NCBI GenBank assembly: GCA_024641475.1
Contig: JAHECZ010000015.1
Span: 1-59,523 of the forward strand
Direction: 5' to 3'
DNA length: 59,523 nucleotides
Source: Gammaproteobacteria bacterium
GTDB taxonomy: Bacteria; Pseudomonadota; Gammaproteobacteria; UBA6429; Thiohalophilaceae
Both the position numbers and the translations under genes were made by a program. The notes beneath the pieces were generated by a model. That model made no database searches, had not been told where the DNA came from, and saw only the letters and a list, made by a program, of their open reading frames with translations. This document shows, in pieces, positions 18,000 through 38,713 of the stretch (within the stretch, counting starts at the first letter, position 1; each line of letters starts with the position of its first letter).

Positions 18000-18174
18000 T
18001 TATTTCTGTTGTGTGCATCACTGTAAACTTTAAAATCTCTGCAATTTGAAACCAAATTAATAATAAGCATATACTAATAAACTGAAATAGTGCGTTAGTT
18101 TCTTTAATCCGTATATTAATTGTTGAAGTCACTTCCGGAATACTGCAAACTGCAACGTATTCAGGTAGCTGACT

Positions 18175-20145
18175 ATGCCATTACGTCATAAATTATTTCT
18201 CATCATTGCGCTGTTAAGCTGCGTGCCGCTGCTGGTGTTGCTATTCGGTGTGGTGAATCGACTTGAAACCGAAATTCGCGAACGAACCGAAAAAGAAGTC
18301 CATGTCAGTTTGGGCAAAATGGCAGAAGAGTTGCGATTGATTATTGACAATCAACAGTCAATCGCACGTGGCCTGATTCATGATTTGGCCATACGCCAGT
18401 TTGCCAGCGTGACTGAAAAACCGGTGGATAAGCGCGCCAGCAATCACGAGTATCAACAACGTGCGGAAACGCTCGAACAATTTTTCCTGAATTATCAAAA
18501 GGCAGTGCCTGATATTCAGGCTCTGCGTTTCATGGATCGGCAGGGTAAAACCCTGGTAAAGGTCAAGGAGGGAAAATTGATCCCTCCCAAACTATTCGAT
18601 GAAGAATATCGACGCATGTTTGTTTCTGATCAATCCAATAAAGCCTTTTTTAAGCAAGCGATAGCTCATCCATCCGATGTGATTATGTCGGATTTTGAAT
18701 TAGGGCAAACCACAGAAGATGCGGATTTTTGTCCGGCTATGGTGCGTTATACCGCCCGCATTCGTGATGAAGTAGATCATGAGCAGGGTGTGTTGGTGGT
18801 TAATATGTGGGGTAAGCGGCTTGATGCAACGATTGAAGCATCGCTGGGTGGTTATCCTGGTCAGGCTTATCTGGTGGAATTGAATGAAGATGCTGCGCGT
18901 GACGGAATATATCTCTATCATAAGGACAGCAGCCGACGCTTTGCAGATCAACTTAAATCAGAGTTTCGTTTCACCAGGCAAATTTCACCCCAGGAATGGC
19001 AATCGATTAAAAACAGTAAAGACGTCGGTACTTTAAGAAGTACGGATGGACGTATGTTTTTTTATCGTATTTTACGACCGTTTGTCACGCGCCCCGGCGT
19101 TGGCTGGCTATTAGTGATTGAAGCTGATACTGCAACAGTGCTCAAACCAGTTGAGAATATGCGTCAATCCATCTGGTGGCTATTAGGGATTTTGGTGTTG
19201 GCTAGTCTTATTAGTGCCGTGTTAGTGGCATGGCGAATGACCAAGCCGGTATATGAATTAGCCGACACGATGAAACGTTATGCGGATGGTAATTATGCCA
19301 GTGTTTATACAGAATCGCGCGGTGATGAAATCGGAGTCGCTGGCAGGGCATTCAATTATCTGACCTCACGTTTGCAGCAAACCGAACAGGAGCGGGACAA
19401 GGCTGTACGCGTGGCGTGTCAATCGGAACGTCTGGCTGCAGTAGGTCAGTTGGCTGCTGGAATTGGACACGAAATCAATAATCCATTAATGAATATTATG
19501 TCTCTGGCAGCATTAATTGAGGATGAAGTTCGCGATAAGGCGCCGCAAGCGTATGCGGATACGCAAATACTGCAAAAAGAAGGCAGGCGCTGCGCTGGTA
19601 TTGTGCAAGGTATTCTGAGTTTTGCACGTGAAAAACCGCCAGAATATTGCGAGTTTGATATGGCTGCGTTAATTGCGGAGACATTGCAATTGTTGCAGCA
19701 TCGTTTGGCAGCCGCTGATATACATACACATATCGATATGGAAAAAGGCCTGTCCATGTCGGGTGACTCAAGTCAATTACAACAAGTTTTAGTCAATGTC
19801 ATCCTTAATGCGGTACAGGCTTCGCCTGAACATGCTGAAATTCAGATACTTGCCCATAAAGACATGGATCATATTTCGATAGAGATTATCGATAGTGGTG
19901 TTGGAATCGACAAAGCCAATATCAATAAAGTTTTCGATCCGTTTTTTACTACAAAAAATCAGGGCGAGGGTACGGGCTTGGGGTTATCGGTGAGTTACGG
20001 GATAGTAAACCGCCACGGTGGAAATATTTATCTTGAGAATAACGCCGAGGCTGGCTTGCGGGTAATGATAATTCTGCCATTACGCGCCAAAGAATCTGTG
20101 GTTGCTGAAATTGATTTGGCGAAGGAGGTAATGCATGTCGCCTGA
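18175..20145 (+). CDS. membrane sensor histidine kinase (NtrB class) with large periplasmic domain
   Basis: Likely senses a periplasmic signal and phosphorylates the sigma-54 activator encoded next. Order: transmembrane helix about 7-27, periplasmic domain about 30-330 with Cache-like features, second helix about 332-354, HAMP about 355-408, then a HisKA helix with the phospho-acceptor His432 in GIGHEINNPL. An HATPase domain follows, with NVILNAVQAS (N box), IIDSGVGID (G1), FDPFFTTK (F box) and GTGLGLSVSYGIV (G2). The 656-residue gene overlaps the regulator by 11 bp. The kinase core resembles NtrB-type partners of sigma-54 activators. The true ligand is unknown; the sulfur genes downstream suggest a sulfur species. 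Confidence 0.93.
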   Translation: MPLRHKLFLIIALLSCVPLLVLLFGVVNRLETEIRERTEKEVHVSLGKMAEELRLIIDNQQSIARGLIHDLAIRQFASVTEKPVDKRASNHEYQQRAETLEQFFLNYQKAVPDIQALRFMDRQGKTLVKVKEGKLIPPKLFDEEYRRMFVSDQSNKAFFKQAIAHPSDVIMSDFELGQTTEDADFCPAMVRYTARIRDEVDHEQGVLVVNMWGKRLDATIEASLGGYPGQAYLVELNEDAARDGIYLYHKDSSRRFADQLKSEFRFTRQISPQEWQSIKNSKDVGTLRSTDGRMFFYRILRPFVTRPGVGWLLVIEADTATVLKPVENMRQSIWWLLGILVLASLISAVLVAWRMTKPVYELADTMKRYADGNYASVYTESRGDEIGVAGRAFNYLTSRLQQTEQERDKAVRVACQSERLAAVGQLAAGIGHEINNPLMNIMSLAALIEDEVRDKAPQAYADTQILQKEGRRCAGIVQGILSFAREKPPEYCEFDMAALIAETLQLLQHRLAAADIHTHIDMEKGLSMSGDSSQLQQVLVNVILNAVQASPEHAEIQILAHKDMDHISIEIIDSGVGIDKANINKVFDPFFTTKNQGEGTGLGLSVSYGIVNRHGGNIYLENNAEAGLRVMIILPLRAKESVVAEIDLAKEVMHVA

Positions 20146-21511
20146 AAAAATTCGACTTATGTTTGTTGATGATGATGCGGTAACGTGTCGTATTATGAAA
20201 CGAAACTGCGATATTCAAAAATATGAATGCAAGGTATATCAGGATGCGCAAGCATGTCTTGAGGAATTCAAGAAAAGCGGTGCCGATGTTGTGGTCAGTG
20301 ATTTGCGTATGCCTGGCATGAGTGGGTTTGAATTGCTCAGTGAATTACGCAATATTGATCAGGATGTGCCTGTACTCGTTATGACAGGTTATTCATCTGT
20401 AGAAAATGCCGTAGAGGCGATGAAACGCGGGGCCAATGATTTTATCAAAAAACCTTTTGATTTTTCGGAACTGAAACTGTTGATCGACAGGGTTTTAAAA
20501 GTAAGAAATCTGAAGCAGGAAAATGCCTTGCTTAAGCGTCGGCTCTTACCAGAAGGTAATCGGTTTGGCATGATCGGGGAAACGCCTGTTATGCGTTCTT
20601 TATATGCAACGATTGAGAAAGTGGCGGCAGTTTCCTGTAATGCCATTATCGCTGGGGATTCTGGCACAGGTAAAGAATTGGTAGCACGAGCCCTGCATGA
20701 TTTTAGTCCACGATGCGATAAGGCATTCGTCGCGATTGATTGTGGATCATTGAGTGATACTTTATTGGAGAGTGAGCTGTTTGGCCATGAGAAAGGCGCG
20801 TTTACCGGTGCAATGCAGCGCAAATACGGCCTGATGGAACAGGCTAATGGCGGGACATTGTTTCTGGATGAAATATGCAATATTTCTGATGCGATGCAGG
20901 TTAAGTTGATGCGTGCCATTGAAGACAAACGCATCATGCGCGTTGGGGGTACTGCGCCTATTCCTGTCGATATTCGTGTGGTTGCTGCCAGTAATCAGGA
21001 TATGCAAGCGATGGTAGAGGCAGAGAAATTACGGCATGATTTTTATCATCGCTTAAATGTGGTAACAATTCGTGTACCATCCTTACACGAACGTCGTGCA
21101 GATATCCCCGCTCTGATCAATCACTATGTGCAGGAATTTGCAGAGCGCTATAACCGCCAGGTAAAAGGCTTTGATCCCGCTTCATTACAGCATATCTGTG
21201 ATGCCAGCTGGAAAGGTAACGTGCGTGAATTACGTAATACCGTGGAGCGTTGCGTCATTCTTGCTGATGGTCCAAATTTAAGCTGGGGCCAACAGGACGA
21301 CAATCTCTCTATTGATCCCTCAAGTATGCCAGTACATTTTTCTGACGCCGAATTCGTATCATTGATCGAACTCGAACAGGAATATATTCACCATGTGTTG
21401 AAATGCACCAATGGTAAAAAAACCAAGGCCGCTCGAATCCTTGGCATCGATAAAACCACGCTATGGCGAAAATTGCGACGCACTGATGCTGTTGAACCCG
21501 ACATGGTGTAA
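20135..21511 (+). CDS. sigma-54-dependent response regulator (NtrC family)
   Basis: Transcription activator that remodels sigma-54 RNA polymerase using ATP. Domains: receiver 1-120 with phospho-acceptor Asp56 in VVVSDLRMPG, AAA+ domain about 145-380, Fis-type DNA-binding helix-turn-helix at the C-terminus (KTKAARILGIDKTTLWRKLR). The AAA+ part shows Walker A GDSGTGKE, the sigma-54 contact loop GAFTGA within ELFGHEKGAFTGA, Walker B GGTLFLDE and the arginine-finger region. It overlaps its kinase by 11 bp. Two promoters of the sigma-54 type lie next to it, in front of the dsrE-like gene and of soxY, which are its obvious candidate targets. Confidence 0.96.
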   Translation: MSPEKIRLMFVDDDAVTCRIMKRNCDIQKYECKVYQDAQACLEEFKKSGADVVVSDLRMPGMSGFELLSELRNIDQDVPVLVMTGYSSVENAVEAMKRGANDFIKKPFDFSELKLLIDRVLKVRNLKQENALLKRRLLPEGNRFGMIGETPVMRSLYATIEKVAAVSCNAIIAGDSGTGKELVARALHDFSPRCDKAFVAIDCGSLSDTLLESELFGHEKGAFTGAMQRKYGLMEQANGGTLFLDEICNISDAMQVKLMRAIEDKRIMRVGGTAPIPVDIRVVAASNQDMQAMVEAEKLRHDFYHRLNVVTIRVPSLHERRADIPALINHYVQEFAERYNRQVKGFDPASLQHICDASWKGNVRELRNTVERCVILADGPNLSWGQQDDNLSIDPSSMPVHFSDAEFVSLIELEQEYIHHVLKCTNGKKTKAARILGIDKTTLWRKLRRTDAVEPDMV

Positions 21512-21537
21512 TTTACAGACTGTTGGCTTCTGAACAG

Positions 21538-21552
21538 GTGCATTATGCACCA
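21538..21552 (+). promoter_or_regulatory. candidate enhancer site upstream of dsrE-like gene
   Basis: GGTGCATTATGCACC is a perfect 15-bp palindrome centred about 92 bp upstream of the -24 element at 21637. It shares the TGCA-N3-TGCA core with a dyad upstream of soxY (23241-23255). No T-run follows, so it is not a terminator. It is a likely binding site for the neighbouring NtrC-type activator. Confidence 0.55.
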
Positions 21553-21635
21553 CTTACGCTGCATGTTCGGAGCACAAAATTAACTTTTATCGCTAACATG
21601 CTGAAATTACTATTAAAACTCAACAGTTAATATTG

Positions 21636-21651
21636 TGGTATGGTTGTTGCT
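21636..21651 (+). promoter_or_regulatory. sigma-54 (-24/-12) promoter of the dsrE-like gene
   Basis: TGGTATGGTTGTTGCT matches the consensus TGGCACG-N4-TTGCW at all but two fixed positions, with GG and GC separated by the required 10 bases. Transcription would start near 21662, leaving a 5' leader of about 50 nt with an AAGAGGAG ribosome site before ATG 21714. Confidence 0.75.
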
Positions 21652-21713
21652 CTGTTATTACTGTCCTACGTTAAATTGATAATTTTTAAACATATTATAA
21701 AGAGGAGTTCAGC

Positions 21714-22199
21714 ATGAAATTATCCATAACATCTCTGGCATTGACCGCTGCATTAAGCATGAGCCTGGCGACAGCCTTTGCTGCAGACAAGACAATCGAT
21801 AGCAAGAAAGAAGCCAAAAATGGCTATCATCAAATTCATGTGGTTTATCATATAAATGAGATCAAAGATGCAACAGGTGCTTTGCGCAATGCCAAGAATC
21901 ACTTGAATGCGGTTGGTGATGAGAACATTGATATGATCGTTGTAACGCATAGCTCAGGTGCTTATGCGTTAGTTGATGGTTCCATGGGTGAAAAAGACAA
22001 AGAAGGCAAGACTCTGGATTTTCGCGATCAAATTGCTTCTTTAGCTAACCGTGGTGTGAAGTTCCAGATTTGTGCCAATACCATTAAGGGTAAAAAGATT
22101 GACGCGAAGAAAATTAGCGAATACGCTGAAATCGTTCCATCAGGTGTTGCGCAAGTCGCTGAATTACAAACCAGAGGGTATGCTTACGTCAAGCCGTAA
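21714..22199 (+). CDS. secreted DsrE-like protein
   Basis: A 161-residue protein with a Sec signal peptide (MKLSITSLALTAALSMSLA, probable cleavage after AFA near residue 23) and a DsrE/DsrF-like fold. The mature part runs HQIHVVYHINE, then a helix of NAKNHLNAVG, a strand NIDMIVVTHSSGAYAL and GVKFQICANTI with one Cys, the position of the reactive Cys in many DsrE-like proteins. Cytoplasmic DsrE proteins carry persulfide sulfur; periplasmic members have no settled role. It has a sigma-54 promoter and lies between the sigma-54 regulator and convergent soxYZ. Inference: a sulfur carrier or chaperone working with SoxYZ. Confidence 0.85.
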   Translation: MKLSITSLALTAALSMSLATAFAADKTIDSKKEAKNGYHQIHVVYHINEIKDATGALRNAKNHLNAVGDENIDMIVVTHSSGAYALVDGSMGEKDKEGKTLDFRDQIASLANRGVKFQICANTIKGKKIDAKKISEYAEIVPSGVAQVAELQTRGYAYVKP

Positions 22200-22224
22200 A
22201 CTCAGGTTAGTACTCTAATAAAAA

Positions 22225-22252
22225 ACGGGCGCTTGGTGCGCCCGTTTTTTTT
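22225..22252. terminator. bidirectional terminator between dsrE-like gene and soxZ
   Basis: ACGGGCGC and GCGCCCGT form a perfect 8-bp stem with a 5-nt loop, followed by a T-run on the + strand and preceded by an A-run, so it works for both convergent transcripts. Confidence 0.9.
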
Positions 22253-22285
22253 ACTATCTATTTTTTACTATCTACCAGGTTGTTA

Positions 22286-22618
22286 CTATTCGATCTTTGA
22301 TTCGCCGACTTCCTTGTTGCCTTGATTATCCACCCAGTTGAGTTTAATCGTGTCGCCTTTTTTGGCATTTTTAACCCGGAATGACAAGAATGGGTTTTTC
22401 GATACAGCAGGTCCCCACATACAGGTCATGACGGTCTTGCCATTATGATCACAATTTAACTCAGTTATAAAATGCGCAGGAACAGTTTGGCCTGAGGCCT
22501 TATCCTTGCGCAAACCCGATTCCATGTCGTGAAAAATAATCGCTTTAATCGTGGCGACGTTTGTTGCGCCATCTTCAATCCAGGCACGAATTTTCATTGG
22601 TTTAGTTGGCATTGCCAT
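22286..22618 (-). CDS. soxZ: thiosulfate oxidation carrier subunit SoxZ
   Basis: Partner of SoxY in the SoxYZ complex that carries sulfur intermediates during thiosulfate oxidation in the periplasm. The 110 residues fit the Ig-like SoxZ family: PTKPMKIRAWIEDGATNV, then PAHFITELNCDHNGKTVM, and the end DTIKLNWVDNQGNK. As usual it has no signal peptide and would be exported together with the Tat-dependent SoxY. It lies 31 bp downstream of soxY in the same transcript. No soxA, soxX, soxB or soxCD is present in the window. Confidence 0.95.
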   Translation of the reverse strand: MAMPTKPMKIRAWIEDGATNVATIKAIIFHDMESGLRKDKASGQTVPAHFITELNCDHNGKTVMTCMWGPAVSKNPFLSFRVKNAKKGDTIKLNWVDNQGNKEVGESKIE

Positions 22619-22649
22619 ATTTAATTCCTCTCAATCTATGTCCGAGTGA

Positions 22650-23120
22650 TTAACCGCCGCAGCCGCCAAGGGTAACCTTGACAGGTTTCTTGGAGCTGTA
22701 TAATTTGCCGCCGGATTTGACGACAGCGATTACATCGGATGTTTCACGCATCTTGATACGGCTGGTGACAAAGCTGTCGACGTTGGCAGTCATGTTGTAA
22801 CTCAGTGTGAGCGGGTTATTATTTTTTGGAACAAATACGGAAATTTGTTCAACATTGGGCAGGCTGGTTTTTACCGTAACCGAGACGACCGCGCCATTTT
22901 CCGCGATGTCCGGGGCTTCAATTTCGATATCCTTGCTGGCGGTAGCAGAGCTTGCGCCTGCGACGGTTTTCATGGCCTCATCCAGCGATTTGGCCTCAAA
23001 TGCGTTTTTAGGCCATGCTGCCAGTACGCTACGTGGGCTAAGTAACCCAGCACCGGCCGCAATTGCGACCGCACCCGCTGCCAGTGAAGCGCGCAGGAAG
23101 GTACGTCTAGTTTGTATCAT
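22650..23120 (-). CDS. soxY: thiosulfate oxidation carrier protein SoxY
   Basis: Periplasmic carrier whose C-terminal Cys holds the sulfur substrate. The protein ends with the conserved GGCGG swinging arm, exactly as in functional SoxY. It begins with a Tat signal (TRRTFLRASLAAGAVAIAAG) and is predicted to be cleaved after VLA. The open frame reaches 23141, but the chosen ATG 23120 has AAGGAG 7 nt upstream, giving 156 residues. The longer start would put the ribosome site inside the gene. A -24/-12 promoter lies 42-57 bp upstream of the start codon. Confidence 0.95.
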   Translation of the reverse strand: MIQTRRTFLRASLAAGAVAIAAGAGLLSPRSVLAAWPKNAFEAKSLDEAMKTVAGASSATASKDIEIEAPDIAENGAVVSVTVKTSLPNVEQISVFVPKNNNPLTLSYNMTANVDSFVTSRIKMRETSDVIAVVKSGGKLYSSKKPVKVTLGGCGG

Positions 23121-23127
23121 TGAGTAA

Positions 23128-23133
23128 CTCCTT
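23128..23133 (-). promoter_or_regulatory. ribosome-binding site fixing the soxY start
   Basis: AAGGAG on the minus strand lies 7 nt before ATG 23120 and inside the upstream in-frame extension, so translation begins at 23120 rather than 23141. Confidence 0.8.
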
Positions 23134-23161
23134 CTCGTCATAATGTGATTAAAAATCTATT

Positions 23162-23177
23162 AGCAATTCCTGTACCA
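23162..23177 (-). promoter_or_regulatory. sigma-54 (-24/-12) promoter of soxYZ
   Basis: The minus strand reads TGGTACAGGAATTGCT, matching TGGCACG-N4-TTGCW at all but two fixed positions with the GG and GC exactly 10 bases apart. The start would be near 23151, about 31 nt before soxY. It is very like the promoter at 21636. Confidence 0.75.
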
Positions 23178-23240
23178 TAAGAAATAATATAATAAAAACA
23201 ATAAGATATCTTGTCTGGCAAGAGGGAATTGGTACTATGT

Positions 23241-23255
23241 ATTGCAATATGCAAC
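23241..23255 (-). promoter_or_regulatory. candidate enhancer site upstream of soxYZ
   Basis: The + strand reads ATTGCAATATGCAAC, a dyad with 5-bp arms TTGCA/TGCAA. It shares TGCA-N3-TGCA with the palindrome at 21538 and sits about 72 bp upstream of the -24 element, a usual place for an NtrC-type activator. Confidence 0.5.
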
Positions 23256-36259: not shown

Positions 36260-38713
36260 TTATTGAACGGCATTGCAACCCGGTGCGGTTGCCTTGTCGC
36301 CAACACAGTAAGGCACCATCATTTCATTGTCTTCATGCTCAACAATGTGGCAGTGCCATACATATAAACCGGCAATATCGAATGTCGCATTAATACGAGT
36401 CACTTCTCCTGGATACGCGATGACGGTATCTTTCCATCCAGTCTCAGTGGCTTCCGGACTATTGACGGCACCGCTTAGTGCCATGGTGGCAGGATCAAAG
36501 GCTTCACGTTCAACCACTTTGAATTTCACCAGATGCACGTGTATAGGATGTGCATCTTCAGTGGTATTCCATAATTCCCAGGTTTCAGTTGTGCCAACGG
36601 CAGGATTAGTCGCCAATGGATCAGCCCAGAGCGTTACGCTGCCACCTGCGGCACCATTCACTCCCAGTACAGCGGCTTTTGGTGCCATTGGTACGGCATT
36701 AGCTAATGCACCCGTGGTATCAACACAAGATCCAGGATTCATCGGATCCGGTATCGCGGCTGTATCTTGCACAATTTCTCCGGTGGGTGATATGGCAACA
36801 CAGATTTGCGATGATTCTTCTTCCATCAATGCCAGATCACGTGCGCTGGCAAGTACTGGTCCATTCGCAGGATCTTTTGCGTCCGGCAAACTCAGCACCA
36901 ATTTTTCAGGTGCAGTGGCGGAATATTTACTGCCTGGATCAGTTTTACCGGTGCCATTAATCGCGACATTGACAACAAACTCCATAACCTGGCCCGTCGT
37001 GTCCGGATCCGCTGCTGCATCCGGGAATCCACCAAAAGGCGCATCCGGTGCGGTATTGATCATTCGCACGCGCGTGCCATTCGGAAGACCGGAAAAATCC
37101 ACCAACACATCGGCACGTTCAGCCAATCCCATCAACAAGGCAGTTTCCGGAGCGGCGGCGGGTGTAGGTGCAGGGATTTTACCGTTGCCAGTAAGTATTG
37201 TTCGGAAACCAGTTTCAATTTTCACCACACTTGGCAACAGACTTTGCTCTGCACCAATTTGGTAAATGGGGATTTCCTGATTTGTGATCTGGTTTGTCAC
37301 AGGGTCTACGACAAACATCGACAAATTCAGGAAGCGCGAGTTACAACCATTCAATAAACGGAAACGATACATGGCTTGCGCAACTGTATGCGTCGGCCAT
37401 GCAACCCCATTTACCACCATGACATTGAAGAATGCTTCTGGATTCCAGATCGGTGAAATATCCGAGGGACCTGTTCCCAGCGTATTTATTTTCAGCCCGT
37501 TATTACTGTTTGCTAAGGGACCTGAATCCTGGCCATCACCCAGGCCTTCAAAGAACGCTCGATTGGCAGGATAAAATAACGAGCCATCCGCATTAAATGA
37601 GCGATCCTGAATCACAATTGGAATTTCCCGGTACTGTTCTCTACCTGAACTTTTACTGGTAGCAGGGAAATTGGTTTTGGTAAATGTATCACCGAGCTTG
37701 GGAGCGGGGCCTGGCAGAATGCCAGATTTCAAGCCTGTTTCGCCCGTTTTGGGATCGCGAATCAACCAAAATCCAGCGGGACCTGCGTAAACATTACTGC
37801 GGGTCATGCCGAGGGTATGATCGTGATACCACAATGTAGTGGAAGGTTGCGTATTGGGATAAGTGAATTTTGCCTGGCCGTTTTTGGCGTTCGTTACCAC
37901 ACCGTATTGATTGACCAAGGATCCTGTCGTTGCATAAGCAGCGGGTATATTGTTTGCGTCCGGTAACCACCACGATTCCGGGTATCCATCACTTTCTGGG
38001 CCAACGTGTGCACCGTGCACATGTGGAATCATGGGTACGGGGCCGCCATATGGCTCGGCGAGTAGTGCGTTATTAGCAGGGCGACAGTCTTTGGTTTTGG
38101 CCGGATTCGTGCAGGGAAGTTGCTCCGGGTTTGCCCAGTGTAAAGAACGATCAACTGGCAACAAATGACTCAAATAATTACACGCAGGATCTTTGGATCT
38201 CCTTTTGCTTTTCGCACAGGCAATCGGATCGACCAGCAAATCATTCATCCAGGTAATGGTTGCGGTTGTATTAACTGTGTTTTCGATGGTATATGACGGA
38301 TAGTTGAATTGGGAATTGGGAGCAGGTGCGATACCCATGCCACCACCGTATTTTGTCGAATCAGGCATCCCATCAACATCCGGTCCATAACTCCAAATTG
38401 TCGTAGCAGGAAATGTGTCGTTGCGGCCATTGAGAGAATTCCATATCCCGCCCGGGAGTATCTGCTGTTTGAATTGCCGCTCGGAAATGATGTAGTTGTT
38501 ATTGGCGTTGGTGTATTTCATTACTGGTGGAATTAAAAGTGGTGTAACAAACTTTGGAATAGATAACGGATCCAGTGTTCCGCCAGCGAGTGGTTGTGCT
38601 TGCAATGCTGTAGACGCCAATAGCAAGCTGGAAACAACCAGGCTCATGCTTAAATGAATAAGTCGCCGGTATCGAGAAGAAATGTCGGTGTGATGTGCGC
38701 GAAAAAAAGTCAT
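36260..38713 (-). CDS. large periplasmic multicopper oxidase
   Basis: An 817-residue cupredoxin-fold oxidase coupling one-electron oxidation of an unknown substrate to reduction of oxygen. Copper motifs are complete: HVHGAH (about residues 231-236) and WYHDH (296-299) in the N-terminal half, HPIHVH (722-727) and HCHIVEHEDNEMM (787-799) at the C-terminus, the last giving the type 1 Cys, His and axial Met. A signal peptide spans about residues 17-40. It is longer than CotA/bilirubin-oxidase relatives because of insertions between domains. ATG 38713 (MTFFRAHH) with AAGGGG upstream is preferred over ATG 38743. Possible substrates include metals, phenolics or a partner cytochrome; the adjacent cytochrome gene favours the last. 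Confidence 0.93.
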   Translation of the reverse strand: MTFFRAHHTDISSRYRRLIHLSMSLVVSSLLLASTALQAQPLAGGTLDPLSIPKFVTPLLIPPVMKYTNANNNYIISERQFKQQILPGGIWNSLNGRNDTFPATTIWSYGPDVDGMPDSTKYGGGMGIAPAPNSQFNYPSYTIENTVNTTATITWMNDLLVDPIACAKSKRRSKDPACNYLSHLLPVDRSLHWANPEQLPCTNPAKTKDCRPANNALLAEPYGGPVPMIPHVHGAHVGPESDGYPESWWLPDANNIPAAYATTGSLVNQYGVVTNAKNGQAKFTYPNTQPSTTLWYHDHTLGMTRSNVYAGPAGFWLIRDPKTGETGLKSGILPGPAPKLGDTFTKTNFPATSKSSGREQYREIPIVIQDRSFNADGSLFYPANRAFFEGLGDGQDSGPLANSNNGLKINTLGTGPSDISPIWNPEAFFNVMVVNGVAWPTHTVAQAMYRFRLLNGCNSRFLNLSMFVVDPVTNQITNQEIPIYQIGAEQSLLPSVVKIETGFRTILTGNGKIPAPTPAAAPETALLMGLAERADVLVDFSGLPNGTRVRMINTAPDAPFGGFPDAAADPDTTGQVMEFVVNVAINGTGKTDPGSKYSATAPEKLVLSLPDAKDPANGPVLASARDLALMEEESSQICVAISPTGEIVQDTAAIPDPMNPGSCVDTTGALANAVPMAPKAAVLGVNGAAGGSVTLWADPLATNPAVGTTETWELWNTTEDAHPIHVHLVKFKVVEREAFDPATMALSGAVNSPEATETGWKDTVIAYPGEVTRINATFDIAGLYVWHCHIVEHEDNEMMVPYCVGDKATAPGCNAVQ

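Follow-up and report, generated by a model that had tools for sequence, protein, structure and literature searches.

The sox locus and its dyads

The window, by which is meant the whole 59,523-nucleotide stretch of DNA analysed, contains a histidine kinase gene, the gene of an NtrC-type response regulator (RR1), a dsrE-like gene and, on the other strand, soxY and soxZ (Table 1). The start of the RR1 gene overlaps the end of the kinase gene (20135 against 20145), and the locus is flanked by a nuoN-like gene (identified by eye) on one side and a tRNA-Met gene on the other. The gene names nuoN, rimP, nusA, lysA and dapF were all assigned by eye and are presumptive. The sensor part of the kinase has only weak likeness to dCache and HK_sensor_dom_bact, both matches being below the Pfam cut-offs. 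In RR1, the receiver (PF00072), sigma-54 AAA+ (PF00158), lid (PF25601) and Fis-type HTH (PF02954) domains all score above their cut-offs. The GAFTGA loop, Walker A and B motifs and phosphorylatable Asp are all present, which fits a group I enhancer-binding response regulator, and rpoN is present in the genome.

Table 1. Features of the sox locus, in window coordinates.
Feature	Position	Strand	Remarks
Dyad 3, TGCAAACTGCA, probable autoregulatory site	18144..18154		31 bp before the histidine kinase start codon
Histidine kinase	18175..20145	+	HAMP, HisKA and HATPase_c domains
RR1, NtrC-type response regulator	20135..21511	+	Receiver, sigma-54 AAA+ with GAFTGA, Fis-type HTH
Dyad 1, GGTGCATTATGCACC, putative RR1 enhancer site for dsrE	21537..21551		Core 21539-21549
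-24/-12-like sigma-54 promoter of dsrE, TGGTATGGTTGTTGCT	21636..21651	+
DsrE-like protein	21714..22199	+	N-terminal signal-like stretch, by eye
soxZ	22286..22618	-	
soxY	22650..23141	-	
-24/-12-like sigma-54 promoter of soxYZ, TGGTACAGGAATTGCT	23162..23177	-
Dyad 2, ATTGCAATATGCAAC, putative RR1 enhancer site for soxYZ	23241..23255		Core 23243-23253

The initial annotation described two TGCA-N3-TGCA dyads at enhancer distance from sigma-54 promoters of dsrE and soxYZ, and proposed that these define the recognition sequence of the activator. Dyad 1, with 6 bp arms around three bases, exists, although it had been placed at 21538-21552, one base to the right of its true position. Dyad 2, with 5 bp arms, is exactly where it was reported, and the 11-base cores, TGCATTATGCA and TGCAATATGCA, do differ at a single position. 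Measured from the middle of the dyad, the -24 element begins 92 bp away at dsrE, as annotated, and 71 bp away at soxYZ, rather than 72 bp. A third dyad, ahead of the kinase gene, had been overlooked. The sigma-54, -10 and -35 matrices used here, their thresholds and the convention by which start sites are placed from -24/-12 elements are our working assumptions.

Numbers alone do not set the dyads apart. There are four exact TGCA-N3-TGCA sequences in the window against 2.69 expected (at least four in 32 of 100 shuffles) and nine one-mismatch -24/-12 matches against 7.47 expected (at least nine in 36 of 100 shuffles); the dsrE element has two mismatches to the search pattern and is therefore not counted among the nine. 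In the 3.16 Mb genome there are 69 exact dyads, compared with 25 for the reversed pattern, a control of different base make-up, and the 11-mer alone is therefore no predictor of targets. When the dyad is combined with TGG-N9-TGC, five places remain in the genome. Two are dsrE and soxYZ, a third runs from the dsrE dyad in the opposite direction into RR1, and the others are at 38009 and C128:10869. The fourth exact dyad of the window (TGCACCGTGCA, 38009-38019) has TGG-N9-TGC within range.

Conservation of the dyads and their association with RR1

Within the family, 28 of the 40 genomes searched contain an RR1 orthologue. In an even draw of 369 genomes across the class, RR1 was present at 60 % identity or more in 20, the window's own included, plus one partial match. 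These loci were examined with wider flanking sequence. A DsrE-alignment scan of named genomes yielded 64 loci, including those of Thiohalophilus thiocyanatoxydans DSM 16326 (L175) and of a Sulfuriflexus MAG (L209), and duplicates were then removed. In total, 53 loci were counted. Their regulators share 52-76 % identity with RR1, and only one falls below 59 %. The exception, L058 (52 %), was retained for its syntenic kinase and dsrE. Five loci with regulators 49-55 % identical, for which orthology is doubtful, were left out of the counts (L059, L148, L149, L150, and L152); the last four nonetheless have dyads before the dsrE-like gene, and in L059 no dsrE was found.

Conservation between relatives had been set beforehand as a test of the proposal, and the dyads are conserved. 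An exact dyad is present in 46 of 51 RR1-dsrE intergenic regions (49 of 51 allowing one mismatch; dinucleotide shuffles: mean 0.34, maximum 2), upstream of soxY in 26 of 28 (mean 0.27, maximum 3), and upstream of the kinase gene in 41 of 47 (mean 0.51, maximum 3). The middle three bases are mostly A or T across loci; the core is invariant in part because of the way sites were chosen, with no more than one mismatch allowed. Spacing is also constrained. From the start of the dyad to the -24 element there are 74-77 bp at soxY in 22 of 22 cases and 95-101 bp at dsrE in 28 of 38, the remaining 10 falling at 84-120 bp, and in 41 of 41 cases the kinase dyad begins 28-36 bp ahead of the inferred start codon. 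At soxY, a -24/-12 element was found in 22 of the 23 readable loci in which the GAFTGA loop of the regulator is intact.

A chance origin of the dyads is ruled out by this footprinting of orthologous upstream regions. That they are chance palindromes of AT-rich intergenic DNA, kept through recent common ancestry only, would agree with a window count no higher than in shuffles, but the dyads have been kept in the proportions given above despite diverged surroundings and with regulators down to 52 % identity, making this explanation scarcely credible. Many random dyads had been named at the outset as evidence against the proposal, and the 69 in the genome do partly bear this out; conservation between relatives nevertheless holds.

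Where RR1 is missing, the dyads mostly are too. Among 14 loci with a dsrE homologue, readable upstream sequence and no visible RR1 adjoining, one has a dyad (L206, near a contig start), in a control that mixes distance with absence (five of the 14 are more than 55 % identical to the window's DsrE and nine are under 55 %) and that considers RR1 next door only, L201 and L211 being from MAGs that also carry an RR1 locus. The clearest case is L184, in which dsrE and soxYZ are kept, with no kinase or RR1 match upstream in the locus and no dyads. The 12 genomes of the family with no RR1 match gave 14 soxY matches, spread over nine genomes, and 13 of these have readable upstream sequence. Taking all soxY copies together, a single one of the 13 shows an RR1-type dyad (L262, from a fragmented assembly with RR1 present in its congeners); dyads of the type found with the paralogue described next occur in three (L256, L260, and L265), and nine have none.

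A paralogous regulator, RR2, is 49-53 % identical to RR1 (52 % in the window's genome), and GAFTGA is kept in 20 of 20 RR2 proteins. Of 20 RR2 loci, 15 have a soxY match close by and 12 have a dyad, 13 sites in all, in the 450 bp downstream. The dyad core is bordered by CG in 12 of these 13 sites and in none of the 124 exact RR1 sites. This suggests two paralogous systems with a common operator core, which would be told apart by the flanking CG. An RR2 system with downstream soxY(Z) and CG-flanked dyads is seen, for example, in the window's own genome (L090, contig C43) and in L093, L101, L107, and L109, and most RR2 loci with a dyad also have -24/-12 elements. Another regulator with a similar recognition helix, such as RR2, might then bind the dyads at the RR1 loci as well, the neighbouring RR1 being incidental; the shared core, the 69 genomic dyads and the presence of several sigma-54 activators in the genome are in keeping with this. 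It is nevertheless unlikely, given the difference in CG flanks, the 13 readable soxY loci of RR1-less family genomes, of which nine have no dyad and three, in genomes with RR2, have the RR2 type, and the joint absence of a neighbouring RR1 and dyads in L184.

Conservation, spacing, the site ahead of the regulator's own operon, the rarity of dyads where RR1 is missing and the divergence of flanks from those of RR2 together support the proposal that the dyads are the recognition sequence of the adjacent activator. On this sequence evidence, we consider it probable (roughly 0.8) that they are binding sites of RR1, phosphorylated by the adjacent kinase and opening the sigma-54 promoters of dsrE and soxYZ. 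What the sequences show is conservation, spacing, association with RR1 and flank divergence; binding, phosphorylation, looping, autorepression and the signal are inferred, as follows. The kinase would sense a signal, guessed from the targets to be a reduced sulfur compound, and would presumably phosphorylate RR1, which in its phosphorylated form would bind the dyads, at about -97 (soxYZ) and about -118 (dsrE) from the predicted start sites. From there it would probably loop to the sigma-54 RNA polymerase and open the -24/-12 promoters by ATP hydrolysis, while limiting its own operon through the third dyad.

Upstream of the kinase gene, the -10-like hexamer of best score begins 8-10 bp ahead of the dyad in 27 of 41 regions (TGCTATAAT in L035) and 19 bp after the dyad start in five; in the other nine, the window included, it is elsewhere, and the window lacks a clear -10 element adjoining this dyad. 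Bound RR1 would cover or crowd the kinase promoter in the 27 and five regions of the relatives, and by extension from these RR1 probably represses its own operon via the third dyad. Eleven loci (L032, L034, L035, L039, L043, L044, L045, L047, L049, L054, and L056) have a further exact dyad 100-138 bp upstream of the kinase start, and at the same place the window has a one-mismatch copy.

Upstream of soxB, there is one exact dyad in each of nine out of 30 loci, 192-349 bp before the SoxB match (L224, L227, L232, L233, L238, L241, L243, L245, and L247), with a -24/-12 score below 10 in the 420 bp upstream in eight of these nine. The soxB locus of the window's genome (L239) has no dyad. With only nine of 30 loci bearing one, soxB was rejected as a general target.

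Loss of the sigma-54 contact loop

The GAFTGA loop is missing from nine RR1 orthologues (L050-L054, L056-L058, and L156). It reads NAFSGA in five members of the genus g13 and is deleted in a sixth (L057); in two of g14 it is KGVNDA or HGVNDA, and in L058, from another family, it is GALPGA. The phosphorylation site is retained in all nine. The Walker motifs and arginine finger are retained in g13, and altered in g14 and L058; in g14 the alteration affects Walker A, and in L056 Walker B too.

All eight loop-lost loci with a readable dsrE promoter lack a -24/-12 element (score below 10), yet the exact dyads are kept (dsrE 8/8, soxY 5/5, and kinase 7/8). Among loop-intact loci, 37 of 42 have the -24/-12 element at dsrE. 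Of the five exceptions, L137 and L140 have dyads with one mismatch, L055 and L147 have no dyad, and L033, from the window's genus, has the loop GSFTGA and decayed -24/-12 elements, TGGACTATTTATTGTT and TAGTATGGGAATTGAC. GSFTGA is not a sign of loss, because L036, L038, L135, and L195 combine it with good promoters. Likewise, sigma-54 itself has not been lost, because rpoN was detected in all eight loop-lost genomes examined for it. Two genomes with intact loops and good promoters (G004 and G009) gave no rpoN match; their assemblies are fragmented, at 91 % and 70 % complete, and the missing rpoN is probably due to assembly gaps.

Over 50 loci, loop and promoter are associated with a Fisher p of 2.4e-6. 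In a tree built without the loop columns, and without L192 (partial regulator) and L151 (contig end), there are at least three loop changes, two of them forced by well-supported branches, and an independent-pairs test of the association is not significant (median p 0.5). The Fisher value therefore does not come from independent events, because the tree needs only three changes and the pairs test gives 0.5. Judged from the tree, g13 and g14 may share one loss, so that there would have been two to three independent losses.

The retention of dyads in relatives without GAFTGA and -24/-12 elements implies a putative sigma-54-independent mode there. A -35/-10-like pair follows the dsrE dyad, beginning 18 bp beyond it, in the loop-lost L050-L052 and in L033 (near-consensus TTGACA-17-TATATA), with scores that overlap those of loop-intact loci; such a pair would put the dyad near -58. 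After the dsrE dyad, the best -35/-10 scores range from 5.7 to 9.7 over the eight loop-lost loci, and L033 reaches 10.8; the median for 37 loop-intact loci is 7.0 and their maximum 9.9. At soxY, the loop-lost loci and L033 have scores of 5.8-8.9, and the median for 20 intact loci is 8.6. With this overlap, the statistical case for sigma-70 promoters in the loop-lost relatives failed. We regard as evenly balanced the idea that in two to three lineages the sox regulator shed its loop and the promoters shed their -24/-12 elements in concert, the unchanged dyads being reused with sigma-70 promoters from a class-I-like position, while in the same cells rpoN and the RR2 system, with the same core, CG flanks and its own soxYZ, stayed on sigma-54.

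RR1 could also bind the dyads as a repressor or sigma-70-type regulator, with the -24/-12 matches incidental, since kinase dyads abut or lie near -10-like elements in many relatives, the loop-lost forms retain their dyads, and the soxB dyads mostly lack a good -24/-12 element. The -24/-12 elements, however, stand at a near-fixed spacing of 74-120 bp from the dyad, and they occur with an intact GAFTGA or GSFTGA and are missing in every readable loop-lost locus; this alternative is considered very unlikely.

Comparison with known systems

Of the NCBIfam models, those of ZraR (414.4 bits), AtoC (409.7 bits), and NtrC (TIGR01818, 402.2 bits) fit RR1 best, all with scores below the respective curated cut-offs of 760, 714, and 558.6. 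An NtrC-type box was rejected as the operator, with five window matches within two mismatches against 3.09 expected and none between 18 and 23.3 kb. In the open-access literature, subscription papers being mostly outside the search, no description of the RR1 sox system or its operator was found.

The operator core is not new, as it equals that of the LuxO/VanO box of Vibrio, TTGCA-N3-TGCAA (PMC3352281). ChIP-seq data for LuxO of V. cholerae list the sites ttgcaaaatgcaa, ttgcaatttgcaa, and ttgcattttgcaa (PMC10328515), and another report places LuxO sites some 100 bp ahead of the sigma-54 site (PMC11407668). The likeness extends to an NtrC-type response regulator, sigma-54 promoters, and an identical TGCA-N3-TGCA core. 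RR1 is, however, not LuxO by the curated model (307.7 bits, cut-off 800), it has a cognate kinase next door, its predicted targets are sox and dsrE rather than qrr RNAs, and the outer TT/AA flank is not required at its sites.

The nearest functional analogue is TspS/TspR of Acidithiobacillus caldus, a sigma-54-dependent two-component system adjoining sox genes, with the published site TGTCCCAAATGGGACA (PMC6335251, PMC12194929). The RR1 site is different, there being no match to the TspR site within three mismatches in the window, and the likeness is one of gene context.

Taken together, the sequence comparisons support the dyads as the LuxO-type operator for a sox two-component system, to which a third site and a series of apparent sigma-54 losses can be added. 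For this system, which is conserved in many gammaproteobacterial sulfur oxidizers, the RR1 dyads supply an operator and a set of targets that can be tested. The RR1 loci also form a natural series in which sigma-54 dependence has apparently been lost and the operator kept. NtrC proteins without GAFTGA, from Caulobacter and Rhodobacter capsulatus, are reported to act at sigma-70 promoters (PMC10274813), and 3 of 11 activators of a Thioalkalivibrio are listed as lacking GAFTGA (PMC5744179). The nine loop-lost RR1 proteins resemble the former as members of the NtrC family without the sigma-54 contact loop. They differ in that intact and loop-lost forms are found in one orthologous group, with the operator kept; GAFTGA loss has so far been known for single proteins, whereas here a single syntenic locus offers both forms for comparison.
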